Virus record (IMG/VR): IMGVR_UViG_3300032308_000779
Location: 1 to 24,287 of that record
DNA: 24,287 bases
Source of the DNA: a virus
Direction: 5' to 3' (one strand)
In this document: positions 3,187 to 24,287 of the stretch, one piece after another
Layout: every line of letters begins with the position of its first letter
How positions within the stretch are numbered: the stretch's first letter is position 1
Program-made: the position numbers and the translations under genes
The notes under the pieces: model-generated
What the model was told of the DNA's origin: nothing
Seen by the model: only the letters and a program-made list of their open reading frames with translations
The model's database searches: none

Positions 3187-4234
3187 CTTTTCCTTTCTTT
3201 TCATTCCAATCATATATTTGATCTAATTTTATTTTAATTTCATCTGGACTTAATCCTTCAAGTTCTTTAGCACCTATTTCTTGTACAAATTTTTGATAAT
3301 CCCTATCTCTTTCTTTTTGTGATTTGTTTTTATCATTAATTTTTTCTAGAGTTTGTTTTAAAATTATATCTTTAATTGAAGATTTGTTTGTTTTTAATTC
3401 AGTTGAAGTATAATTATTTGTATAATCATTAGTTTTTAAATCTTCGGGATAAGTAATTCTATATTCGTTTTTATAAGTTTCTTTATTATTTAATTCTTTA
3501 TTTTTAAGAGAAGAATTAAAAGCAACTAACATTAATACAGCTAAAGGGTCAAATACCATAATTAAACATATAATAATAAATCTAACGGCTCTATCTAGGT
3601 TACCGTCATCACTATCGCCAAATAAAATTTCGGCAACATATTTAAATGGCCCCACTTCCTTGTCTATAGATAACTGCTCTTTGTCGTATTTAAGTTTTTG
3701 ATTTGATAATTCTGTAATCTTTTTAGATGAATTGGCAATAATGTTATTGGCTCTATTTCTCTCAGTCTGTTGTTTTTGTCTTTCTACTAAACCTTTGTCA
3801 GCGTCTTTGTCTATGACTTTATCTAATGCTTTATCTAGTTGATCTACAATTTTTTGAGCACCATCAATTGTTTTCTTTTCAGACTCTATTTGTCTTTCAA
3901 TATTTTTAACTAATAATCTATTACCAGTATTTGGTGCTGCTGTATCTAAATGTGCTTTAGATAAAAACCCAAATATACCTATTGATGTAATGAACATAAG
4001 CATTAAAACTGCTGATGTCAAGTACATTCTTATTGAATTAGGTAGTTCTTTTAAATTCCAGTTACGATATAACCAAGATACAGTTACCAGTTTTGCAGCT
4101 TCTAGTGTAATACCCATTGTTACCACTGCCCAATATGCACCGGCAAATAAAGATGCTAATCCTAATATAGAATAATAAGCACCTACAATAGATACTGCAA
4201 TACCCGATAAGAATAATAATGTGGTTAATATCAT
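3170..4234 (-). CDS. Polytopic membrane protein with large coiled-coil loop
   Basis: A 354-residue membrane protein. Hydrophobic segments are near residues 3-30, 33-56, 70-92 and 217-240. Between the third and fourth is a highly charged coiled coil (about 108-195, with repeats such as IERQIESEKKTIDGAQK), and the C-terminal 110 residues are charged and probably cytoplasmic. The motif ITLEAAKLVTVSWLYRNW in segment 2 resembles membrane proteins that I associate with T4-like marine phages, whose role is not established. It begins four bases after the preceding gene's stop codon ends the coupled chain from the glucosaminidase, and overlaps the lipoprotein gene downstream. A role in lysis or membrane exclusion is inferred only from context. 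Confidence 0.75.
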   Translation of the reverse strand: MILTTLLFLSGIAVSIVGAYYSILGLASLFAGAYWAVVTMGITLEAAKLVTVSWLYRNWNLKELPNSIRMYLTSAVLMLMFITSIGIFGFLSKAHLDTAAPNTGNRLLVKNIERQIESEKKTIDGAQKIVDQLDKALDKVIDKDADKGLVERQKQQTERNRANNIIANSSKKITELSNQKLKYDKEQLSIDKEVGPFKYVAEILFGDSDDGNLDRAVRFIIICLIMVFDPLAVLMLVAFNSSLKNKELNNKETYKNEYRITYPEDLKTNDYTNNYTSTELKTNKSSIKDIILKQTLEKINDKNKSQKERDRDYQKFVQEIGAKELEGLSPDEIKIKLDQIYDWNEKKGKDEKNS

Positions 4235-4238
4235 TTAA

Positions 4239-4514
4239 TTATTTTTTATTTTCAGAATCAAATTGTTCTAATGTCATTAATTTAGGTGCTTTTATATTTT
4301 TTGGATTTTTAATACCTAAATGTTTTAGTAATAATTTTGTTTCATTTGCTGCTTTTTGCATAAAATGTGTATGTGCCATTTGTGATACGGTCATATCATG
4401 TAAAAATTGCCTTACTTGTTCTTTTAAATTTTTATCAATTCCACTTTTAAATCCCATAAAATAACTTAAACCTATTACAAGAGCTGCGCCACCAAAAAAT
4501 AGTACTTCGTTCAT
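4239..4514 (-). CDS. 91-residue single-pass membrane protein
   Basis: The start is placed at 4514 because the ATG there has a strong AGGAG site and overlaps the preceding stop as ATGA. An ATG further upstream (4559) has neither. The protein begins MNEVLFFGGAALVIGLSYFM, one membrane segment, followed by a Lys-rich helical domain with several His and Met residues. An acidic N-terminus and positive residues after the segment suggest that the C-terminal domain is cytoplasmic, which argues against an inner-membrane spanin. The family is not recognised. Confidence 0.7.
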   Translation of the reverse strand: MNEVLFFGGAALVIGLSYFMGFKSGIDKNLKEQVRQFLHDMTVSQMAHTHFMQKAANETKLLLKHLGIKNPKNIKAPKLMTLEQFDSENKK

Positions 4515-4651
4515 TTTTTCTCCTTTTTTGTTTTTAATAATCTGCCATAATTCGGCCATCCAAACTTATCATGTGATTCATCAACATATCGCCAACGTAT
4601 TACACCAGTATCAGGATTTCTCTCGTATATTTTTGGTCTTTCTTTTGTCAT
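4511..4651 (-). CDS. 46-residue basic microprotein
   Basis: It encodes MTKERPKIYERNPDTGVIRW, then RYVDESHDKFGWPNYG and a Lys-rich tail. It is joined to both neighbours by 4-base ATGA overlaps (4648-4651 and 4511-4514), which is strong evidence for a real, translationally coupled gene. No family is recognised. The charged, aromatic sequence suggests a soluble protein. Confidence 0.7.
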   Translation of the reverse strand: MTKERPKIYERNPDTGVIRWRYVDESHDKFGWPNYGRLLKTKKEKK

Positions 4652-5349
4652 CTTTTAATTACGATCTTTCCATCTTGTCTCAATTTCTTAATTATATTTA
4701 TAACTTGTTGTTCATAGTCTTTTGTAGTACTCCAACTATCAAGTCCACGAGCTAATGCTATACCATCAGGTTTTCCCCACAATCTATTTTGACTATCACG
4801 TATTTTTCTAAATTCAGAATATGCCTGTTTTGTATTAAGAATTGTTATATAATCACGTACTGAAGAACATTTACTAGAATAAGATTTAACTCTCCAAGAT
4901 AATGTATCATTATATCCTTGTGGCAACATGCCTTTGTCTTTATTCCAAACTCTTATTCCGAAGAGGTTATTTCCTTCTTTAGCAAATCTACTTAAACCGG
5001 CATTACTTTCTATAATGGCCTGAGCAATAATAAGTTCATCAGGTATTTGTTCATTTTTATGAAGCTCTAAATTTAAATAAGCAATACATTTTTGCATAGT
5101 TTTGATAAAAATCTCATCACTATAAGTTTCTATTCTAGGTTCCATGAAACCAATTTCTTTGGCCCATTTTATAGTTTTATCTATGGCTTTTTCTTCAACA
5201 TTATGTTTAGATATAAAATTTGGATAAAACGTACCTATACCAAATCCTATTAAAGTAATACCAATAATAGACATTAATTGTCTAATATGATATTTAATTT
5301 TTCTTGGCCACTTATATTTAACGTACCAATACCAAGGTCTAGGTTTCAT
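4648..5349 (-). CDS. Membrane-anchored glucosaminidase (Bax/FlgJ-like)
   Basis: A 233-residue protein of the endo-beta-N-acetylglucosaminidase family (Bax/FlgJ type), which cuts the glycan strands of peptidoglycan. After a basic, aromatic N-terminus comes one Gly/Ser/Thr-rich hydrophobic segment (about 24-42, SIIGITLIGFGIGT), then the catalytic domain from about 77. Visible motifs are QAIIESNAGLS with the likely catalytic E114, GNNLFGIRVW (126-135) and the helical YSEFRKIR region. The weakly hydrophobic segment resembles a signal-anchor-release segment, so export without a classical holin is possible (inference). It heads a chain of coupled membrane genes down to 3049. Confidence 0.85.
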   Translation of the reverse strand: MKPRPWYWYVKYKWPRKIKYHIRQLMSIIGITLIGFGIGTFYPNFISKHNVEEKAIDKTIKWAKEIGFMEPRIETYSDEIFIKTMQKCIAYLNLELHKNEQIPDELIIAQAIIESNAGLSRFAKEGNNLFGIRVWNKDKGMLPQGYNDTLSWRVKSYSSKCSSVRDYITILNTKQAYSEFRKIRDSQNRLWGKPDGIALARGLDSWSTTKDYEQQVINIIKKLRQDGKIVIKR

Positions 5350-13783: not shown

Positions 13784-14458
13784 TTATTTCCAGTTATCCT
13801 TTACCCATTTTTGTTCTGATTCATGAGGGTCTGGTTTACCATGAAAAACGGCCACTTTAGCATTCAAGTCTTGTTCAAACGTCCATTCGCTCTTATGAAA
13901 TCTTGGATTGACTCTACTATACCATTTGTAAGAAAAAGTCCATTCATCAGGAAAAACTTTTAAAATTGATTGTTTATTAATTAAATCTGTAATAACGTTT
14001 TGATCGCCTTGTACTTTTCTCCATTTAGGTCTATCTTCAAAATAAGTTTCCCATATTAAAGATGAAGCATTTATATTATTCCATTTCATTATACTGGAGT
14101 TTAATACTTCTTTTCCACTAAAATCATTTATAATTGCAAAAGTATTTTCGTCTCCCCAAGTAGCAAAACAATCTATATTTTTTAATATAACAACATCTAA
14201 ATCAAAATAAAGATTTACGCCTTGTAAACCTGTTTGTGGATGAAATAATTGAAGTTTGTTCCACCAACCTTGCATATCAAATCTTGGAAATGATTTAAAA
14301 TGTATTTTACCATGAACTTGATCAAACAAATTAACATGATCTGTAAAACAATAAAATTCAAAAGGTACGGTTAAATGTCTATTAACCATATTGTACAATA
14401 TTTGTACATATTCTGGTTTATATTTGTTACCATAGTAAACACAACATACATTTATCAT
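13784..14458 (-). CDS. GT-A-like glycosyltransferase
   Basis: A 224-residue protein that looks like a GT-A glycosyltransferase, which transfers a sugar from a nucleotide donor in a metal-dependent reaction. The N-terminal strand INVCCVYYG and the DxD motif in LYFDLDVVI (D86, D88) are visible, followed by acceptor-side residues rich in Trp (KWRKVQGDQNVI and DEWTFSYKWY). It is the last gene in a block joined by ATGA overlaps (14455-14458 with its neighbour). The acceptor, a virion protein, host polysaccharide or lipid, cannot be read from sequence. Confidence 0.7.
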   Translation of the reverse strand: MINVCCVYYGNKYKPEYVQILYNMVNRHLTVPFEFYCFTDHVNLFDQVHGKIHFKSFPRFDMQGWWNKLQLFHPQTGLQGVNLYFDLDVVILKNIDCFATWGDENTFAIINDFSGKEVLNSSIMKWNNINASSLIWETYFEDRPKWRKVQGDQNVITDLINKQSILKVFPDEWTFSYKWYSRVNPRFHKSEWTFEQDLNAKVAVFHGKPDPHESEQKWVKDNWK

Positions 14459-15267
14459 ACATCTTGTTCCTTTAATGTTTTATAAGCTGTGCCATTTCCT
14501 ATTTCTTCAATAGTAAATTGATTTTCTACCACAAACTTTAACCATTCTTCTACTGTTTTTCTTCCTGGTTTTAATGGTTTTTCTATAAATTTTAAATTGT
14601 GTGAAGCAATAGGTGATACTATATTATCAGTATGGCATATAACTGGCACTTGATTTAATACTGCATCAACAGCTGATAAACTCATGTTAGTTACTAGACA
14701 ATGGCAATCTTTTAAATCGTCTTTTATATCTGTTCCCCACCATTTATTATCAGGTCTTGGTTTGTTTCTTACTATTATTTCTCTTTGTGTATATTTTCTT
14801 ATTTCAGTTGTAACTTCATTTATCCATTGTTCTTGTGAAATACCATTAATATGATAAGTTACTGTTTCTGAAGAAGGACATAATAATATGTGTTTACATT
14901 CTCCTGTATACCAACCTTTAAATTCGGCATCTATACCTTTGTGTTTTAATTCGTTAAGTCTTTGACCATTACCTACACTTCCTCTTGTTGTATGTAATTT
15001 GCCTTTTATTATTCTAAAATAAGTTTTATTTTTATCAATTATTCTTGGTTCAGGATATCTTACAATTTGTTGAGTTAAATAACCAACATCTACATGCCAC
15101 CATTCTTCACCTTTATCTATACACTCTTTAATTCTAGGTATATTTTTACCACCTAATCCCCAAAAAAAATTAACTGGTTTATCTGTTTCAGGCCAGCCTT
15201 TTGATATAGCAGGCCAAATTTGATGAGATAAACATTTATCCCAATTCATAAAATGACAAGTTATCAT
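14455..15267 (-). CDS. GT-B-like transferase, paralogue A of a tandem pair
   Basis: A 270-residue protein with a capsule-synthesis or polysaccharide-transferase pattern. After an N-terminal domain with WWHVDVGYL, the second domain holds ILLCPSSE (127-134), REIIVRNKPR (162-171) and CHCLVTNMSLSAVDAVLNQV (188-207), the nucleotide-sugar-binding style of GT-B folds. The same motifs occur in the same order in the upstream neighbour, so the two are tandem paralogues. Junctions on both sides are ATGA overlaps. The donor and product are unknown. Confidence 0.65.
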   Translation of the reverse strand: MITCHFMNWDKCLSHQIWPAISKGWPETDKPVNFFWGLGGKNIPRIKECIDKGEEWWHVDVGYLTQQIVRYPEPRIIDKNKTYFRIIKGKLHTTRGSVGNGQRLNELKHKGIDAEFKGWYTGECKHILLCPSSETVTYHINGISQEQWINEVTTEIRKYTQREIIVRNKPRPDNKWWGTDIKDDLKDCHCLVTNMSLSAVDAVLNQVPVICHTDNIVSPIASHNLKFIEKPLKPGRKTVEEWLKFVVENQFTIEEIGNGTAYKTLKEQDV

Positions 15268-16139
15268 ATATATTTTTCTTTCTGTAGTCTGCCAATAGAT
15301 TTTCTAGCAACTCCACTTATTATTTCCTTCATAGTAAATTGATTTGCTAATAAACTATCTATCCATAAAATTATTTGATCTCTAGTTGGTATAAAAGGTT
15401 TTGAAATATTTAAATCTGTATTTGATACTGGAGCGCATGATGAGGATATATCGCAAAAAGAAGGTATACCATTTAATATAGCTTCAATTGCTATTGTAGA
15501 TTGAAAAGTAACAATGCAATAGGCATCTTCAAAATCTTTTAAAATTGGTGTATTTGTATCTTTATACCTAATTACTATTTGTTTATCTGTTTGTTGTTTT
15601 ATTATATTAATTGTTCTATCTAACCAACCTTGTACTCCTTCTTCTATTTTGTAATATCTAATTAAGGCTTCTGATGGTGGGCAAATTAAAATTTTATTAC
15701 CTGTTGCTTTAAATTGTGAAATATTTTTAATAATAATACTTTTATTATTTTGTATTCTTAATATATCATCTTCATTCATTAATTTATTTACATTAAAATT
15801 TAAATTTTCAGAATTTACACATATTCTGTAAGATTGTTCATTAGTTATTTCATTAGGATTATGTTTTTCTGCTCTAAAAAAATATGCGTGATCTATATAA
15901 TAATAATTTATTTTATGTTCTTTTGCTAGCCATAATAATTTTTCTGTTCCTCTTAAAATACCTAATACAATTATAGGATTTTTTTCTTCAATCCATTTTT
16001 TTATATTGAAATTTGGCCAAAATGTTGTTTCAAATTTATCTACAGTTCTTCTATTATTATAATAAATTCCTTCAAAACTTTTTGTAAAATTTTCTACAAT
16101 ATCATTAGTTGCTATTCTAGTTCCAAAACCATAAATCAT
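15264..16139 (-). CDS. GT-B-like transferase, paralogue B of a tandem pair
   Basis: A 291-residue relative of the preceding entry. The matching motifs are YYIDHAYFFRA (79-89), ILICPPSEA (150-158), QIVIRYKD (187-194), AYCIVTFQSTIAIEAILNGI (206-225) and ANQFTMKEIISGVA (265-278). The N-terminal region begins MIYGFGTRIATND and is quite different, suggesting another acceptor. It is joined to both neighbours by ATGA overlaps. The family placement is by eye. Confidence 0.65.
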   Translation of the reverse strand: MIYGFGTRIATNDIVENFTKSFEGIYYNNRRTVDKFETTFWPNFNIKKWIEEKNPIIVLGILRGTEKLLWLAKEHKINYYYIDHAYFFRAEKHNPNEITNEQSYRICVNSENLNFNVNKLMNEDDILRIQNNKSIIIKNISQFKATGNKILICPPSEALIRYYKIEEGVQGWLDRTINIIKQQTDKQIVIRYKDTNTPILKDFEDAYCIVTFQSTIAIEAILNGIPSFCDISSSCAPVSNTDLNISKPFIPTRDQIILWIDSLLANQFTMKEIISGVARKSIGRLQKEKYI

Positions 16140-16807
16140 AATTGTATTTTAACCATATTATTGTAAACACTATACCATTCACTTGAATAATCACAATCTG
16201 CATATTGTTCAAAATATGGGCCGCCTTCAGTATAATGAATATTTTTTACATCTTCTTTATAAGTATATTCTCCTGCTAACCAATTCCATTCTAAAGGTAA
16301 TGAACCTATTAATTCTTCATTTTCTAACCATTTAAACTGATGCAATTCTAATCCACTGGCCTTATTAACATAATCAGGTGTTAATCTTGTACATTTTTTA
16401 CAATTCATTAACATAAAACTTGACCAATTTTTTTTAGGATAGGCGGTTTGTATATGACCTAAAAATTTTGTTTCAGTTCTAGGCACATAATCATGTTTAC
16501 AAACTTGAACGGCATATTTGTCATCTCTTAATCTCCAAAGTTCTTCAACATCAGCTTTCATTAACATATCGCAATCCATGAATAATGCCCAACCTTGATA
16601 GTTCATAAGGTGAGGTATAATAAATCTACTAAAAGAAAATTCTGTAGATGACAGATTGTTTCTTTCTCTTAAAAAATCATCTTTAATGTTTGGTAAATAT
16701 ATTGGTGTTATAGAAACAGGTTTTGTACTATTTCTTAATATACTTTCAGATAACACATGATATGCTATCTTTTCTTTACTATCATAACCTATAAAAATGT
16801 TTATCAT
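16136..16807 (-). CDS. GT8-like glycosyltransferase
   Basis: A 223-residue protein resembling GT8-type (glycogenin/lipopolysaccharide) glycosyltransferases. It starts MINIFIGYDSKEKIAYHVLS, has SFSRFIIPHLM and the DxD metal motif FMDCDML (D78, D80). The C-terminal part, with LPLEWNWLAGEY and IHYTEGGPYF, contains the His and Gly positions expected of the sugar-binding side. It is joined by ATGA overlaps to both neighbours. Confidence 0.75.
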   Translation of the reverse strand: MINIFIGYDSKEKIAYHVLSESILRNSTKPVSITPIYLPNIKDDFLRERNNLSSTEFSFSRFIIPHLMNYQGWALFMDCDMLMKADVEELWRLRDDKYAVQVCKHDYVPRTETKFLGHIQTAYPKKNWSSFMLMNCKKCTRLTPDYVNKASGLELHQFKWLENEELIGSLPLEWNWLAGEYTYKEDVKNIHYTEGGPYFEQYADCDYSSEWYSVYNNMVKIQL

Positions 16808-17505
16808 ACTCTAGCCTCAGGACTTCTTCCCATTTGTTTTCTTGTAGGACCTTTAGTGTGATCATATAGAGATCCTAATATTGATCTTGCTTGTACATGC
16901 CCTACTTTTTTATCTCCTATATCTATATTAATAGTATTTCTTTCTTTTTCAAATTTTTTTCTTACCAAATCCCATATATAACTATCATGTTGTTCTTTCT
17001 CATTATATATCAAATCTTCATCATACATTTTTTTTATTTCTTTAAAATAATCTAAAGTATCTTTATGTTTTAAATTCCATAATAAAAAACCACATTCACT
17101 GTAATGTTCTCCTCTTCCTAGATACGTCATCATTCTATCTTCTTTATATAAATTAGTATTAATAAAGTCTAATGTTAGAGGTTTATAAAAAACACTATCA
17201 GAATCTACCCATATTAATATATCATAATTGCTATTAATACCTGCCTGAATTACTGAATAAACTTTATAACAAAACCTAACTCCATCAGTTATATAATCTT
17301 TAAATTTTCTATTTTTATTTCTTTCAACAAAAATTTTACAATCATCATTTAACAATTTTATTTTGTAATTGTTATTGATAGTAAAAAATTCTTCAGAATA
17401 TATTTCTAAATCAAAAGGCCAATTATAACTTTGAACAAATCTATGAGCATATTCATTATATAATTTTTTATTAAATGAAGTTATTATTAAAACTTTATTA
17501 TTCAT
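16804..17505 (-). CDS. GT-A-like glycosyltransferase
   Basis: The start is set at 17505 (MNNKVLIITSFNKKLY), which overlaps the FkbM stop by 8 bases; an earlier ATG would overlap by 50. The 233-residue product has the GT-A arrangement, with an N-terminal Rossmann-like strand and a DxD motif in LIWVDSDSVF (D101, D103). Basic residues dominate the C-terminus. It is part of the glycosyltransferase block. Confidence 0.65.
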   Translation of the reverse strand: MNNKVLIITSFNKKLYNEYAHRFVQSYNWPFDLEIYSEEFFTINNNYKIKLLNDDCKIFVERNKNRKFKDYITDGVRFCYKVYSVIQAGINSNYDILIWVDSDSVFYKPLTLDFINTNLYKEDRMMTYLGRGEHYSECGFLLWNLKHKDTLDYFKEIKKMYDEDLIYNEKEQHDSYIWDLVRKKFEKERNTINIDIGDKKVGHVQARSILGSLYDHTKGPTRKQMGRSPEARV

Positions 17506-18187
17506 ATACGAATATTGTCTCTTTTTTAAAATTGCCTTTGCATACATAGTTATATTTTTTTAAATACTCTGTTAAATTATTACGATATTCCTTTTCTTTA
17601 TCGTTTCTAATTGGCAATTCTAAACACAATACAGGTTTACATCTTTGTATGGTTTGTATAGCTCCTTCTACAACTTCTTTTTCGTGATTTTGACAATCAA
17701 CTTTTATAAATCCTATATTGTTAAAATTGTAATCATCAATTTTTTTAACTAAAACTTTAATAGTTTTTAATTGTTTGAAATCAATTTTTCTATTAGTATT
17801 TCCTTCTTGTACTCCAAAATTATTTAAACTTGCGTTACCACATTCATCGGGAGATACATATAAAGTTAATTCTTTGTCTGTAACATTAGAAATAGCATTG
17901 CCGTACAAAGTATAATTTTTAAATTCTTTTAAATTTTCTTTATAACATTCTAAATTATCAGGATGAGGTTCAAAAGCATATACTTGATTAAATTTTTCGC
18001 ACATTTCTTTTGACCAAAAACCCACATTACTTCCTGCGTCTATAGCATTAGTTTTAAATTCTTTTACAAAAGATAAAGCATAATCTCTTTGTGGTTGTTG
18101 ATATTCCCATCTATTATTTTTTTGTTGTAAAAGATTTTCAAAGTGTGTGTCCCAATTTGGTAAATACCATCCTTTTATATTTTTCAT
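17498..18187 (-). CDS. FkbM-type methyltransferase
   Basis: A 229-residue SAM-dependent methyltransferase of the FkbM family, which usually O-methylates sugars. Motif I is AIDAGSNVGFWS (48-59), followed by the acidic ribose-binding E73 in AFEPHP, and the FkbM signature FIKVDCQNHEKEVVEGA near residues 159-175. It overlaps the resolvase gene by ATGA and leads the glycosyltransferase block, so it probably methylates the glycan made by those enzymes (inference). Confidence 0.8.
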   Translation of the reverse strand: MKNIKGWYLPNWDTHFENLLQQKNNRWEYQQPQRDYALSFVKEFKTNAIDAGSNVGFWSKEMCEKFNQVYAFEPHPDNLECYKENLKEFKNYTLYGNAISNVTDKELTLYVSPDECGNASLNNFGVQEGNTNRKIDFKQLKTIKVLVKKIDDYNFNNIGFIKVDCQNHEKEVVEGAIQTIQRCKPVLCLELPIRNDKEKEYRNNLTEYLKKYNYVCKGNFKKETIFVYE

Positions 18188-18747: not shown

Positions 18748-18865
18748 CTATTTCGTGGCTACAAAATGGACATGTAATTGGATTCATTTCGTACTTTTCA
18801 TAATCCCACGCTATTACATATTTAGTCTCACAGTGAGGACAAGTTTTTGTATGTTTAGTTATCAT
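18707..18865 (-). CDS. 52-residue zinc-ribbon protein
   Basis: It encodes a zinc ribbon with two knuckles, C9-P-H-C12 and C32-P-F-C35, then an acidic tail (EIDEETSESDNDSWD). It starts with a TAATG overlap on nrdB, which supports that it is real, and its last 41 bases overlap the resolvase gene in another frame. Small zinc ribbons of this kind occur in T4-like cyanophages. A nucleic-acid binding or adaptor role is likely but unproven. Confidence 0.7.
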   Translation of the reverse strand: MITKHTKTCPHCETKYVIAWDYEKYEMNPITCPFCSHEIDEETSESDNDSWD

Positions 18866-19968
18866 TATAGTTTAAATTTTTTAAATTGATCTTTTTTAAG
18901 ATCCTGTTTAATACCACCAATAACATAACTTTCTATTTCTGTTTCTTGTGGAGCGTTTTGCATTGATCTACTATTCAACCAATGATCTACCCATGGTAAA
19001 GGATTAATCTTAGTATCATATACAGGATCTAAACCAATGGCCTTCATACGTCTATTTGCCATATATTCTACAAACTGATGTAATAATTTTTCTGATAACC
19101 CTATCATAGAACCTTGAGAGAACAAATAAGTTGCCCACTGTTTTTCTGATTTAACGGCATCATCATACATTTTGTAAACTTCTGCTTCTGTATCTTTAAT
19201 GACCTTTAACATTACTTTATCATTTTCAATATCTTTATAGTTATTAATAATTCTTTGTGATACTGCTAGATGTTGACTTTCATCTCTTGCAATTAAAGAT
19301 ATTATCTTTGCTGAACCTTCTAATAGTTTTAATTCACCAAAAGCAAAACTACATGCAAACGATACATAGAATCTTAAACCTTCTAAAATGTTTACTGTTA
19401 TTAAAGCCTTCCATAATCTTTTTTTCAATTCGTACATATCAACTTTATCTGGTGTTAATTGATACTTGTAACCCATTTCAATTAAATCATCATAACATTT
19501 AGTTACTGACTCTGCACGTTCTTCGATCTTCTTATCTTCAATAATTGTATCAAAAATTTCACCAGGATTTGCATATAAATTTTTTACAATATAAGTATAT
19601 GATCTGCTATGTATTGTTTCCATAAAATCCCATGTTACAATACAACCTTCTAATTCAGGTAAAGAACAGAACGGTAAAAATGCCAAACAAGGCCCACGTC
19701 CTTGTACACTATCTAACATTGTTTGGTATTTTAAATTAGATGTAAATATATTTTTTTGTTCTGGTCTTAGTTCAAGGTAATCATTACGATCTTTTTGTAA
19801 TGATACTTCTTCTGGTCTCCAAAAGAAACCTAATTGTTGCTGTGTTAACTTATCAAAAATAGGATACTTAAATGTATCATATCTTTGAACGGCCAGATCA
19901 TCACCAAAAAACATACTTGCTTTAGTAAAATCTAAACCTTTTGATTTATTAAATACTGATCTACTCAT
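18865..19968 (-). CDS. nrdB: Ribonucleotide reductase class Ia, small subunit
   Basis: A 367-residue NrdB. The subunit holds the diiron-tyrosyl radical used by NrdA to make deoxyribonucleotides. All metal ligands are present with E. coli-like spacing: D86, E117, H120, E196, E230 and H233, and the radical Tyr Y124 in ETIHSRSYTY. Length is close to E. coli NrdB (376). The ATG has a GGAG site, nine bases after the nrdA stop. It is followed by the zinc-ribbon and resolvase genes. Confidence 0.95.
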   Translation of the reverse strand: MSRSVFNKSKGLDFTKASMFFGDDLAVQRYDTFKYPIFDKLTQQQLGFFWRPEEVSLQKDRNDYLELRPEQKNIFTSNLKYQTMLDSVQGRGPCLAFLPFCSLPELEGCIVTWDFMETIHSRSYTYIVKNLYANPGEIFDTIIEDKKIEERAESVTKCYDDLIEMGYKYQLTPDKVDMYELKKRLWKALITVNILEGLRFYVSFACSFAFGELKLLEGSAKIISLIARDESQHLAVSQRIINNYKDIENDKVMLKVIKDTEAEVYKMYDDAVKSEKQWATYLFSQGSMIGLSEKLLHQFVEYMANRRMKAIGLDPVYDTKINPLPWVDHWLNSRSMQNAPQETEIESYVIGGIKQDLKKDQFKKFKL

Positions 19969-19977
19969 TTTTCTCCA

Positions 19978-22284
19978 TTATATTTTACAAGATTCACAGT
20001 CATCATCATCTATAGGTGGTGTTGATTCAGGAACGTTATCCTTAAATCCTATTGGATGTACTGGTTCATCTTCATCTTTCTTACCATCATAAGTATTTTG
20101 ATAATAGGAAGTCTTCCAACCATACTTATACGTTGTTAATAGGTCGTTTATCATAACTGATAAAGGCACCTGTCCTGTGTCGTAATTCTCAGGATTATAT
20201 GACCAGTTACCACTAATTGCCTGATCAAAATACTTCTGCATTACCGCCACTACATTTATATATCCTTCATTTGATTTCATATCCCAAAGTAAGGTATAAA
20301 AATTTTTTAATTGATTATAATTAGGCACTACTTGTTTTAATGGCCCTTTCTTAGACTTCTTAACTGACAAGTAATCTCTAGGTGGTTCTATACCATTTGT
20401 TTCATTAGATACCACGCTTGATGATTCCGATGGCATTTGAGCCGAGAGTGTGCTATGTCGGAGGCCGGCTTCAACTATATCCTTCCTCAATTTCTCCCAA
20501 TTAAATGATAGTTTTCTGGTTACTATTTCATCTACCTCTTTTTTATAAGTATCAATTGGTAAGATACCATCGGAATATTTTGTTCTATTAAAGTATTCAC
20601 ATTTACCTTTTTCTTTTGCAAGTGTATTACTTGATTTTAAAAGATAATATTGAAACGCTTCTGTTAATTCATCTATTAATTTCCACGCACCTTTTTCGTG
20701 ATACATCAATTTATGTCTTGCTAGATAGTGTGCTAAACCAATATAACCAATACCTAAACTTCTTCTGGCCTTTGTTGATATCTCTGCGGCCTTAACTGGA
20801 TATTCTTGGTGATCAATGATTTCGTCTAATGATCTAACTGATAGATCACATAAAGATTCTAATTCGTCTAAGTCTTTTAATATACCTAAGTTGATTGCTG
20901 ATAATATACATAATGCAATCTCTCCATCGCCGTCTATATGTTGAATAGGATTTGTTGGTAGCGTAATTTCTTGGCAAAGGTTTGACATTGTAACTGTGTC
21001 TTTAAATGATGAGTGTGTATTACAATGGTCTATATTCATAAGATATATACGGCCTGTTTCCGCTCTTTCTTTTAATAGACTTTGTATTAATTCTTGAGCT
21101 GATATTTTTTTCTTTTTGATAGATGTTTTCTTTTCATATTCTTCATACAACTTATCAAATTTAGGAGTACCCCATGTTTCATATAAATCAGGAACATCAT
21201 GTGGTGAAAATAAAGTTATTTGTTCATCATCAATAAATCTCTGATAAAATATTTTAGATAATTGAATTGAATAATCTAATTTTCTAACCCTATTATCTTC
21301 TGTACCTTTATTATTTTTGAGAACTAGTATATCCTGTATCTCTTGGTGCCATATTGGAAAGTGAACTGTTGCACTGCCACCTCTTACACCGTTTTGTGTA
21401 CAACATTTAACTGTTGCCTCAAACTTTTTAAGAAATGGAATAACACCAGTGTGTTGAACTTCTCCACCTCTAATTCGTGAATTGATTCCTCTTATACGCC
21501 CAGCGTTAATACCGATGCCGGCACGTTGTGCAATATAACGACCAATAGCCATATCACCACTAAAAATGCTAGGAAGAGTATCATCAATATCAACGAGCAC
21601 ACAACTAGCATACTGCTTAACAGGAGTCCTAACGCCAGCCATAACAGGAGTCGGAATATTAATTTTAAACCTCGAAATAGCATCATAATACTTTTTAACA
21701 TAAGTCATCCTTTTTTCTTTTGAGTATTTTGAAAATATCGTTGCTGATATCATCATATACATAAACTGTGGAGTTTCGTAAACTTCTCCTGAACTTCTAT
21801 CTTGTACTAGGTATTTGTCTATTACTTGTCTTAAACCAGCATATGTAAAATTGTAATCTCTTGTATGGTCTATCCACATATTCATACGATCAAATTCTGA
21901 TTTGTCGTATTGTTTTAATATTTCTGAATCGTAAACTTTTTTATCTACACATTTTTTAGTGTGTTCATATAAGTGTGGATGATCCCAAAGTTTTCTAAAA
22001 ATACTTTTTCTTAAACTGAATAATAATAATCTAGCGGCAACGTATTGATAATTAGGAGTTTCTAATGAAATTAAATCTGAAGCCGACTTAATAAGAATCT
22101 GTTGTATCTCATCTGTAGTTATTCCGTCATAAAATTGTAAACCACTTTTCATTTCAACTTGTGATGCTGAAACGCCTGTTATATCTTCACAGGCAAATTC
22201 AACCATTTGGTGGATTTTTTCTATATTAAGTGTTTCTTTTTCTCTGGAGTTTCTTTTAACAACTAATATTTTTTCAACTGTCAT
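19978..22284 (-). CDS. nrdA: Ribonucleotide reductase class Ia, large subunit
   Basis: A 768-residue NrdA, close to the E. coli length (761). An ATP-cone allosteric domain occupies about residues 4-93. The active site is complete: C228 (SCVLVDID), N435, C437 and E439 in NLCQEI, and C459 in ALCILSAINL. The radical-transfer Tyr pair is Y727-Y728, and the C-terminal redox Cys are C763 and C766 in CESCKI, to be reduced by glutaredoxin such as the one at 9174-9452. Residues about 193-262 have codon use unlike the rest, suggesting recombination. It overlaps the primase gene by ATGA. Confidence 0.96.
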   Translation of the reverse strand: MTVEKILVVKRNSREKETLNIEKIHQMVEFACEDITGVSASQVEMKSGLQFYDGITTDEIQQILIKSASDLISLETPNYQYVAARLLLFSLRKSIFRKLWDHPHLYEHTKKCVDKKVYDSEILKQYDKSEFDRMNMWIDHTRDYNFTYAGLRQVIDKYLVQDRSSGEVYETPQFMYMMISATIFSKYSKEKRMTYVKKYYDAISRFKINIPTPVMAGVRTPVKQYASCVLVDIDDTLPSIFSGDMAIGRYIAQRAGIGINAGRIRGINSRIRGGEVQHTGVIPFLKKFEATVKCCTQNGVRGGSATVHFPIWHQEIQDILVLKNNKGTEDNRVRKLDYSIQLSKIFYQRFIDDEQITLFSPHDVPDLYETWGTPKFDKLYEEYEKKTSIKKKKISAQELIQSLLKERAETGRIYLMNIDHCNTHSSFKDTVTMSNLCQEITLPTNPIQHIDGDGEIALCILSAINLGILKDLDELESLCDLSVRSLDEIIDHQEYPVKAAEISTKARRSLGIGYIGLAHYLARHKLMYHEKGAWKLIDELTEAFQYYLLKSSNTLAKEKGKCEYFNRTKYSDGILPIDTYKKEVDEIVTRKLSFNWEKLRKDIVEAGLRHSTLSAQMPSESSSVVSNETNGIEPPRDYLSVKKSKKGPLKQVVPNYNQLKNFYTLLWDMKSNEGYINVVAVMQKYFDQAISGNWSYNPENYDTGQVPLSVMINDLLTTYKYGWKTSYYQNTYDGKKDEDEPVHPIGFKDNVPESTPPIDDDDCESCKI

Positions 22285-23285
22285 ATATTACATTTCTTCC
22301 AAGAGTTTAATCTACTCAATGCGGATAACTTATTGTGTGTATTGTTACTTATAATAGTTTGAATCTCTGGAATTGTGTTACCAGATATAACTAAATCGTT
22401 AATATCTTTTGATTGAATGTTGTCTGGCCATATAAAAATATTATAATTCTTATCAATCATTTTATACATACGTGTAACTATCTCTTTATTTCTAGGTTCA
22501 TTATCAAAAATATATGTTACATTTTCCGAATTAACTTTTAATATTAAATCTGCACCTGCAGCTGCTAAACAATTATCTATAAACAAACTATCTATTGGGC
22601 CTTCGGTAATGTAAATATGTTTTTGAAAATTTACTCTTTCTAAACCATACACTTTTTGTTTAGTTTCGTCAAGCTTAATTGTTAAATATTTTGGTTGTTC
22701 TTTACCAAACGCTCTACCTTGGATTGCAAATAAATTACCAGTTGTATCATAGAAAGGTATTATTAATCTTGGATGTTCACCTTTAAAATTTTTAAAAGTA
22801 TTTGGTTTAATTTTATTAACCAAAGCCATAAATTCATTTGTATAATAAAGCATATCAAAAAACTTATCTGGTATTTTTCTTTTAATAATATACTTCTTAG
22901 CAGGATGTTCATCAGATAATTCTGATATTGTATCTAATTCTTCTATAATATTTACTTCTTTAAATACTGGTGGTTTAAAATCAAAGTTTGGTTTGGGTGT
23001 TGATGGTGCTGATCCTTTATATCTTTCTAATATAAATTCGTCATGTAATCTGGGGTCTATAAACTTAATAAAGTTGGCCAAGTTTTGGCCCATACCACAG
23101 TTATGGCATTTAAAAAACATATCATTTTTAACTCTATAAAAATATGCTCTAGCTTTACTTTTATTTTTTTGAGAATCTCCACAGTGTGGACATCTGAAAT
23201 TAAATAGATTGTCGTTCTTTCTTTTGAACTTACTCAACTTGGACGATAAAATATTAATAAATTTTAAATCAATATAAGATGACAT
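22281..23285 (-). CDS. DNA primase, T4 gp61-like
   Basis: A 334-residue primase that makes RNA primers at the fork with a helicase of the gp41 type. The N-terminal zinc ribbon has C32-P-H-C35 and C60-H-N-C63, with RVKNDMFFKC between. A linker (90-120) leads to the TOPRIM domain: E228 in YITEGPIDSLF and D261 in IFDNEPRNK, the two acidic positions that bind metal. The -10 of a consensus promoter lies 12 bases before the ATG and there is no ribosome binding site. It is followed by nrdA with an ATGA overlap, so primer synthesis and nucleotide supply are co-expressed. Confidence 0.9.
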   Translation of the reverse strand: MSSYIDLKFINILSSKLSKFKRKNDNLFNFRCPHCGDSQKNKSKARAYFYRVKNDMFFKCHNCGMGQNLANFIKFIDPRLHDEFILERYKGSAPSTPKPNFDFKPPVFKEVNIIEELDTISELSDEHPAKKYIIKRKIPDKFFDMLYYTNEFMALVNKIKPNTFKNFKGEHPRLIIPFYDTTGNLFAIQGRAFGKEQPKYLTIKLDETKQKVYGLERVNFQKHIYITEGPIDSLFIDNCLAAAGADLILKVNSENVTYIFDNEPRNKEIVTRMYKMIDKNYNIFIWPDNIQSKDINDLVISGNTIPEIQTIISNNTHNKLSALSRLNSWKKCNI

Positions 23286-23297
23286 AACACAGTATTC

Positions 23298-23326
23298 AAT
23301 ATACTACATTTTGTCTTATTTGTCAA
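23298..23326 (-). promoter_or_regulatory. Consensus sigma70 promoter for the primase-RNR operon
   Basis: Minus-strand -35 TTGACA (23321-23326) and -10 TATATT (23298-23303) have a 17-base spacer. The -10 ends 12 bases before the primase ATG, so the leader would be only about six bases and lack a ribosome binding site. The -35 abuts the stop of the coiled-coil gene. Confidence 0.7.
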
Positions 23327-23327
23327 C

Positions 23328-23753
23328 CTATTTAAATAATTCTAATAAACTATTGAAGTTTTTTGTTATCATAAAAACAACAACGATACCTGCGCCTAAT
23401 AAAATCCATCTTAATTTTTCAAGCATACTTACTCTACTGCCAATATCGTTTCTTAATGCTTTTATTTCTATAAGTAAACGTCTTTCTACTTGGTTAATTT
23501 CTCTTTGCAACTCTCGATATACACTATCTATTTCATCTGCTCTATCTTTAATTTTTTCAAATATAACTTCATCAGTTTTTTCTTGTTGAGAAATTTTTTC
23601 TTCGTGTACGGCCAACATAGATTTAATAGAAGATGACACGTCGGCTAGTTTATCAATCGCTGTATCTAAGCGTTGATTTATACTACTTACGTTTTCAAGG
23701 TCTTTTTTAATACCTTCTAACTCTACTCTTATATCTAAGTTTTCGTTATCCAT
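23328..23753 (-). CDS. Coiled-coil protein with C-terminal membrane anchor
   Basis: A 141-residue protein with a long charged coiled coil (about 10-108, such as IDKLADVSSSIKSML and ELQREINQVERRLLIEIKAL), then a single hydrophobic segment (about 115-131, RWILLGAGIVVVFMITK) and a short tail. This is the layout of a tail-anchored scaffold. Similar proteins are known in T4-like cyanophages but have no assigned role, to my knowledge. It follows an intergenic gap containing a T4-type late promoter. Confidence 0.75.
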   Translation of the reverse strand: MDNENLDIRVELEGIKKDLENVSSINQRLDTAIDKLADVSSSIKSMLAVHEEKISQQEKTDEVIFEKIKDRADEIDSVYRELQREINQVERRLLIEIKALRNDIGSRVSMLEKLRWILLGAGIVVVFMITKNFNSLLELFK

Positions 23754-23825
23754 ATTTTTTTCTATCTCTCTAGGAGACGTTTATACAGCACTAAAATATA
23801 TTACTTGGTTGTTATTACAACACAT

Positions 23826-23833
23826 TATTTATA
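23826..23833 (-). promoter_or_regulatory. T4-type late promoter motif TATAAATA
   Basis: An exact TATAAATA on the minus strand in the 106-base gap 23754-23859, about 72 bases upstream of the coiled-coil gene. No frame of note occurs in the gap. The same motif occurs by chance in coding DNA, so confidence rests on the intergenic position and orientation. Confidence 0.45.
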
Positions 23834-23859
23834 TTGTACTGTATTAATATTTAGGTAAG

Positions 23860-24066
23860 TTATGCACTCAATGGTAATATTCCTGATTTCATTAATGATA
23901 ATCTTTTAATTTTCCACAACCTTTTAAGTGTCTTTCTTCTTCTTCTGTCTTTTTGTTTTCTGATCAATAACCATTTTTCATTTAATAGATAATATCTTGT
24001 TCTATTATCTTCTCTAATTATTCTTTTTAATACCTTTACTAGTTTACGTTGATGTAATCTGTTCAT
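23860..24066 (-). CDS. 68-residue highly basic protein
   Basis: A very basic protein (about one third Lys and Arg, for example RKQKDRRRRKTLKRLWKIKR), probably a nucleic-acid binding helix bundle. The ATG has a strong GGGAGGT site, which supports the frame. It lies 45 bases downstream of the cyclase gene. No family is recognised; RNA binding or DNA packaging are possible roles but not shown. Confidence 0.65.
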   Translation of the reverse strand: MNRLHQRKLVKVLKRIIREDNRTRYYLLNEKWLLIRKQKDRRRRKTLKRLWKIKRLSLMKSGILPLSA

Positions 24067-24111
24067 TGTTACCTCCCGTTTTTAGTTTATATGATATAAA
24101 ATATTAGTTGA

Positions 24112-24287
24112 TTATTGACCCTCCTTTTTTGTTACTGAATAGATTGATACTTTATTAGATTTACCTTTAACTTGTACCTCATCTAATTTTGAAAAATTGA
24201 ATTTATCTGATACATGATTGTATGTATCTTCTCCAACTACAATCGTTGTGTTGTAGTTCTTACTAACTCCTTCCAATCTACTTGCTA
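24112..24287 (-). CDS. Class III adenylyl/guanylyl cyclase domain, C-terminal end (partial)
   Basis: The 58 visible codons read ASRLEGVSKNYNTTIVVGED, then TYNHVSDKFNFSKLDEVQVK and GKSNKVSIYSVTKKEGQ, a stop at 24112. This is the standard C-terminal part of class III nucleotide cyclases: the A-x-R transition-state motif, the strand I-x-V, a short helix TYNHV, and the VKGKS-x-V-x-IYSV ending. These enzymes turn ATP or GTP into the cyclic form; a few act on pyrimidines. The start, metal-binding Asp residues and base-selecting residues lie outside the window, so activity and substrate are not known. Confidence 0.85.
   Translation of the reverse strand, partial: ASRLEGVSKNYNTTIVVGEDTYNHVSDKFNFSKLDEVQVKGKSNKVSIYSVTKKEGQ

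Follow-up and report, generated by a model that had tools for sequence, protein, structure and literature searches.

A predicted CHASE2-sensor adenylate cyclase of phage curli clusters, with a sensor half that appears to be exchanged together with the adhesin-export system

The window—the whole stretch of 24,287 nucleotides analysed here, from IMG/VR virus record IMGVR_UViG_3300032308_000779—ends within a gene for a class III nucleotide cyclase, and comparison with related phages indicates that the enzyme is the output half of a putative membrane receptor, the sensor type going with the adhesin-export system encoded beside it and the cyclase half with the phage backbone. The explanation that we favour, and regard as reasonably probable, is that of a phage membrane sensor-cyclase belonging to a curli cluster, which would read FecR or adhesin export and make cAMP. 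A cyclase in a phage curli cluster is already a known kind; the exchangeable sensor, the second export system and the pairing with FecR are the parts worth following.

The cyclase fragment and its completion

The C-terminal end of the cyclase (57 codons and stop) occupies positions 24112-24285 of the minus strand, where the frame 24285..24115, followed by the stop at 24112-24114, reads ASRLEGVSKNYNTTIVVGEDTYNHVSDKFNFSKLDEVQVKGKSNKVSIYSVTKKEGQ and is open at the window's right edge. It includes the transition-state Arg (R552, in the numbering of the completed L003 protein) and the VKGK motif (K589). On its own, the fragment scores 17.4 bits against PF00211 (E 0.0035, Pfam), under the cut-off of 21.9 bits, matches PHROG 35576 (E 9e-6) and, by tblastn, the annotated cyclase of Melnitz (Methylophilales phages; E 5e-6), and has relatives encoded on 89 IMG/VR stretches; judged by these relatives, the kinship of the fragment to cyclases is far above chance.

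The gene was completed from L003, the phage contig 3300032309_000433, which is 99.3% identical to window positions 18865-24287 (5,423 bp), agrees in all 174 shared cyclase nucleotides and is the sole match in an exact search with the window's last 48 bases. L003 carries the gene to 606 aa, with matches to PF05226, CHASE2 (E 3.6e-40), and PF00211 (E 2.4e-26, 92.9 bits); the remaining 549 codons are those of this near-identical phage and not of the window's own molecule. Of the metal-binding Asp pair and the transition-state Asn and Arg, R552 alone falls inside the window, and the sensor domain, the setting among curli and FecR genes and the second export system lie beyond what its letters show. 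The first-pass annotation had taken the last 58 codons for a class III cyclase C-terminus; its motifs ASRLEG, VKGKS and IYSV are present in the window frame as it gave them, and the tblastn relatives and the completion by L003 bear the reading out, the 58 codons being 57 residues and a stop. The features of the window needed below, all on the minus strand, are as follows.

24112..24285, minus: CHASE2-sensor class III (predicted adenylate) cyclase, C-terminal 57 codons and stop, identical to L003:6001-6174
23860..24066, minus: 68-aa basic ORF 'dn1', directly 3' of the cyclase and in the same place in many curli-cyclase phages; no family match
23328..23753, minus: 141-aa coiled-coil protein 'dn2', DUF7201-like, conserved downstream of the cyclase; its C-terminal part includes a hydrophobic segment
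22281..23285, minus: primase-like gene, read from its sequence, the first backbone core gene after the cyclase; syntenic in related loci
19978..22284, minus: nrdA, ribonucleotide reductase large subunit, backbone marker
18865..19968, minus: nrdB, ribonucleotide reductase small subunit, backbone marker, with 73% DNA identity to HTVC008M

The curli cluster and its earlier descriptions

In the 99.3%-identical L003, the cyclase closes a curli cluster that itself lies outside the window, the contig order being CsgF, CsgG, curlin, curlin, FecR, curlin-type protein, CHASE2-cyclase, 68-aa ORF, 141-aa ORF, primase-like gene, nrdA and nrdB; the window begins within the cyclase and then runs along the backbone genes. 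Near the dn1 ORF, a GGGAGG-like ribosome site lies at about 24072-24077. To the left of the nrd genes, at 13784-18187 (minus strand), a run of ORFs resembles, by eye, glycosyltransferases and an FkbM-type methyltransferase. The curli operon of L003 is shared by HTVC008M, whose host is Pelagibacter HTCC1062, and in Melnitz, whose host is OM43, both with the cyclase included.

Phage curli genes were described by Zaragoza-Solas 2020 (PMC7029224), and those who discovered the clusters have spoken of them as a mystery. For pelagiphages, Wittmers et al. 2022 (PMC9599517) reported curli (T8SS) clusters in which FecR, a histidine kinase and an adenylate cyclase are encoded, together with a cyclase tree, and the GenBank record of the cultured Pelagibacter phage HTVC008M (KC465899) annotates an 'adenylate/guanylyl cyclase'; the statement of the first-pass annotation that such an enzyme is unexpected in a T4-like phage is thus outdated. 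The published clusters (PMC9599517, HTVC008M) resemble the one described here in their order (CsgF, CsgG, curlin, FecR, curlin, cyclase) and their marine pelagiphage-type setting, and the HTVC008M cyclase is homologous to the completed window cyclase at 40% identity. PMC9599517 differs in that CHASE2, the catalytic residues, sensor exchange and the type I-like system all go unmentioned; the cyclase is not discussed by Buchholz 2022 (PMC9004378), and the word CHASE2 is absent from PMC7029224, PMC9599517 and PMC9004378. The literature searched yielded no account of phage CHASE2-cyclases with a second, type I-like exporter and FecR-cadherin adhesins, of the complete match between sensor and export system, of the cyclase half following the backbone, of the single exchange joint, or of the roughly 40-fold FecR enrichment beside bacterial relatives, all of which are presented below.

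The catalytic half

Profile, residues and fold together make a strong case for a class III nucleotidyl cyclase. The features by which the first-pass annotation proposed to check the family—the metal-binding Asp pair, the Asn and base-selecting residues, a profile search and structure prediction—all point the same way in the L003-completed gene. The catalytic set is complete in L003, with D427 and D473 as the metal-binding pair, K469 and D545 as adenine-selecting residues, and N548 and R552 as transition-state residues, and PF00211 is matched over the whole catalytic domain of the 606-aa protein, well above its cut-off. When 47 curli-phage, 69 further phage and 77 bacterial sequences were compared, the six residues proved invariant in full-length phage homologues, with the exception of the Melnitz lineage, and were likewise found in every bacterial homologue (a single D473 is unreadable); K469 and D545 occur in all members compared, and the HTVC008M cyclase has the same set of six. 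Conservation of D427, K469, D473, D545 and N548 was not forced by the search, since the phage search was seeded within the last 57 residues. Modelled from a single sequence, the protein reached a pLDDT of 39, and a 44-row alignment was used in its place; the resulting AlphaFold2 model (m011e337c1430) has a mean pLDDT of 89. Its cyclase domain resembles Pseudomonas aeruginosa CyaB (3r5g; TM 0.87 by target, 1.7 A), with S. platensis CyaC (PDB) also matched, and the full-length model matches a 'predicted transmembrane sensor domain' protein of an uncultured Caudovirales phage.

The predicted product is, with high probability, cAMP. Published PycC enzymes carry Arg/Gln (CTP) or Asp/Arg (UTP) as base-selecting residues, and because this family has Lys instead, adenylate cyclase is the best prediction; a guanylate cyclase was set aside, the Lys/Asp pair being of the adenylate kind. 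The phage cyclase shares with PycC of Pycsar the class III fold and the metal-binding Asp pair but differs from it in the base-selecting residues, Lys standing at the position of EaPycC R142 and BcPycC D94, in the fused CHASE2 sensor, and in having no cyclic-nucleotide-binding effector beside the gene.

In the Melnitz lineage (L002, which is Melnitz, and L152), Ser replaces the transition-state Asn548 (N548S), and these cyclases may be impaired. The lineage retains the gene despite this substitution, so full catalysis is perhaps not needed everywhere. Its cyclase also has a C-terminal extension.

Sensor half and second export system

CHASE2 spans residues 12-323 of the 606-aa L003 protein, and the model places helices at 307-325, 329-354 and 361-393; CHASE2 and membrane helices thus lie N-terminal to the cyclase domain, in the order of a receptor. 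The close group of the window (L003, L005, L016) has a sensor type of its own, 27-38% identical to other curli-phage sensors.

CHASE2-cyclases also accompany a second export system. On L084, a contig found by genome search that is binned as Rickettsiales and carries phage-type genes, the CHASE2-cyclase comes after genes for a cadherin adhesin and TolC-like, type I permease-like and HlyD-like proteins. Relatives of this cyclase are encoded on at least 302 IMG/VR stretches, and in the 80 loci compared the type I genes recur upstream wherever the contig reaches far enough, a minority having curli genes instead. The type I-like module with its CHASE2-cyclase was seen on large marine phage contigs (L084:3-7715; L188; L209; L266:5158-10245; L267:142-4035, minus strand). 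On three contigs the adhesins combine an N-terminal FecR domain with cadherin domains; FecR genes or domains thus occur in both phage export systems, the curli cluster and the type I adhesins. The permease ORF (L188:4510-5313; L209:4504-5310) matches the membrane half of type I permease/ATPases alone, no ATPase domain being detected in either ORF.

Exchange at a single joint

When one phage is compared with another, identity is often 75-99% in the cyclase half, with 23-40% in the sensor half. The upstream system could be recognised for 71 phage genes (37 curli, 34 type I), loci on contigs that stop at the gene being left out; among these 71, the nearest neighbour shares the export system in 71 of 71 cases by sensor and in 56 of 71 by cyclase, and clusters of mixed system number 0 of 25 by sensor and 2 of 11 by cyclase, all these counts being of sequences and not of independent events. 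These comparisons show, at the level of sequence, that sensor type goes with the export system and the cyclase half with the phage backbone. Across curli phages, sensor identity tracks that of CsgG (rho 0.80) and of FecR (rho 0.77; Mantel p<0.001 for both), both correlations lying mostly between classes and the FecR one being weak inside the long-FecR class (rho 0.16); with the sensor's own cyclase domain, rho is -0.05.

The clearest single case is that of L188 (type I) and L240 (curli), whose cyclases are 98.6% identical and whose sensors are 26% identical; their DNA does not align upstream of the joint and is 95% identical over the 4 kb that follow it. In seven tested pairs the break falls at residues 378-388 of P0003, the end of the last membrane helix; as read from these alignments, the exchanges share a single joint, located in the linker that follows that helix. 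Both export systems occur in one phage, G001, each with its own cyclase, the two sensors being 31% and the two cyclases 82% identical. Two CHASE2-cyclases per phage were seen in L165/G001, L228/G002 and L224/G003, of which one adjoins a type I module and the other an inverted curli cassette, and the paralogous cyclase-coding DNA of such phages is 72-78% identical.

FecR and the bacterial relatives

Bacterial CHASE2-cyclases, mainly from Alphaproteobacteria, are 31-40% identical to the phage proteins, and in the unrooted cyclase-domain tree they fall on one side of a supported branch (99/93). Of 77 bacterial CHASE2-cyclase loci, 23 have a FecR ORF in their flanks. The sampled alphaproteobacterial genomes, with 68 FecR matches in about 116 Mb, would lead one to expect about 0.6; the enrichment is thus about 40-fold, a factor that is only rough because different search models were used. 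Type I secretion genes lie within 3 kb of 15 bacterial CHASE2-cyclases, and the three large FecR ORFs beside bacterial relatives that were examined are FecR-cadherin adhesins. Among the bacterial loci compared, no bacterial CHASE2-cyclase was found in a true bacterial curli operon; the 'bacterial' curlin-bearing matches L083 and L152, the latter of Melnitz type, look like phage contigs binned into MAGs. Together with L084 they had been assigned to Saprospirales, Rickettsiales and Pirellulales MAGs; all three contigs are apparently of phage origin, so bacterial genome collections include phage cyclases.

Comparable pairings have been reported from cells. Sinorhizobium meliloti CyaD1 is, like the phage gene, a CHASE2 receptor-like class III adenylate cyclase adjoining a FecR-domain gene (SMc02177), and without CHASE2 it makes cAMP constitutively (PMC5498481); it differs in being chromosomal and in having its own Crp-family receptor, Clr, whereas no such receptor is encoded in the phage clusters, which bring an adhesin-export system with them. 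The part of PMC9239204 considered here describes Campylobacterota clusters of CHASE2 adenylate cyclase, FecR, TPR and phosphodiesterase genes, which share with the phages the clustering of a CHASE2 cyclase with a FecR-domain protein and differ in being cellular, in including a cAMP phosphodiesterase and, in that part, in having no curli reported.

Proposed mechanism and competing explanations

From its N-terminus, the protein would comprise a membrane helix, CHASE2 in the periplasm, more membrane helices and a linker that leads to the class III cyclase in the cytosol; this cyclase would work as a homodimer converting ATP to cAMP. An infecting phage would add an adhesin-export machine to the host envelope. 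On the periplasmic side, CHASE2 would read either the FecR domain or how that machine stands, and the signal would pass through the linker to change cAMP output. Whichever export system is swapped, curli or type I-like, the sensor half would go with it, while the catalytic half would stay with the backbone. The sequences compared show the family, the complete catalytic set, the order of the domains, the operon, the presence of FecR in both systems and its enrichment beside bacterial relatives. For the sensing of FecR or export by CHASE2 the balance is about even, and the direction of the response is one that we infer. Counting against this explanation, the cyclic-nucleotide-binding domain PF00027 was found in none of 11 phage records, the complete Melnitz genome included, and is absent from 35 of 142 sampled Alphaproteobacteria; those listed all have genomes of at most 2.3 Mb, and some carry rhodopsin, like SAR11, which suggests at most that SAR11 itself lacks cyclic-nucleotide receptors. 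A more far-reaching version, which we put forward tentatively and at somewhat less than even probability, is an interchangeable receptor system: one cAMP output domain and a fixed linker would serve CHASE2 sensors each matched to the installed adhesin-export machine, and with FecR as the common periplasmic cue the phage would monitor its own surface remodelling through cAMP.

The serious rival for the match between sensor and system is linkage alone, from which the match could come because the sensor-coding end abuts the export genes. Export genes and the adjacent end of the cyclase gene would then be swapped as a block by homologous recombination at conserved cyclase DNA, with no sensing involved; the exchange edge lies inside the cyclase gene with everything upstream changing together, the contigs on which two cyclase genes flank a curli cassette offer homology for such exchange, and co-variation within one cassette class is weak. 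We nevertheless consider linkage alone less likely than not, since the bacterial FecR enrichment and the published clusters of FecR and CHASE2-cyclase genes argue for a functional pairing older than the phages, not one of the 71 sensors is cross-matched, and the joint recurs at the natural boundary between sensor and output. Still less probable is that cAMP reprogrammes host physiology in general (energy, envelope, transcription) and that adjacency to curli is incidental: the greater conservation of the catalytic half and the ability of second-messenger enzymes to act in trans speak for this, but across several phage groups and both export systems the gene keeps its place next to export genes, sensor type goes with the export system, and a quarter of the sampled Alphaproteobacteria lack a CRP-type receptor.

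Loss of signalling, with a catalytically reduced cyclase retained as a structural part of the sensor, is suggested by the Ser of the Melnitz lineage and is very improbable as a general account, the six residues being intact in L003 and every other non-Melnitz member. The first-pass annotation had also raised a connection to Pycsar. As a Pycsar-like or anti-Pycsar element, the enzyme would make cUMP or cCMP or act as a decoy in a cyclic-nucleotide defence. PADLOC models of PycC do match the phage cyclase, over the shared catalytic domain alone, but the adenine-type Lys and the Asp are found in every relative examined, the 11 phage records hold no cyclic-nucleotide-binding effector gene, and a CHASE2 sensor and a curli operon stand in place of the Pycsar pair; this connection is so improbable that it can hardly be upheld.

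On the favoured explanation, a sensor-cyclase that is swapped with its export system and recurs beside a second one suggests phage control of host surface adhesion through cAMP, which would act in hosts perhaps without an obvious cAMP receptor. An intact version in cultured HTVC008M, with Pelagibacter HTCC1062 as host, makes this testable, and the natural chimeras mark where working sensor-cyclase fusions can be made.

Contigs carrying the type I-like system

Searches of the largest type I contigs for Terminase_6N, Gp23 and phrog_2 found none of them, and the TolC-like gene of L188 has no relative among 50,697 phage records. The type I contig G004 carries baseplate and tail-fibre families, which support its assignment as a putative myovirus. 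Near the type I module, ORFs resembling 5-aminolevulinate synthase and porphobilinogen deaminase were noticed by eye (L267:6467-7654, minus strand; L268:2219-3424 and 4069-4923, plus strand).
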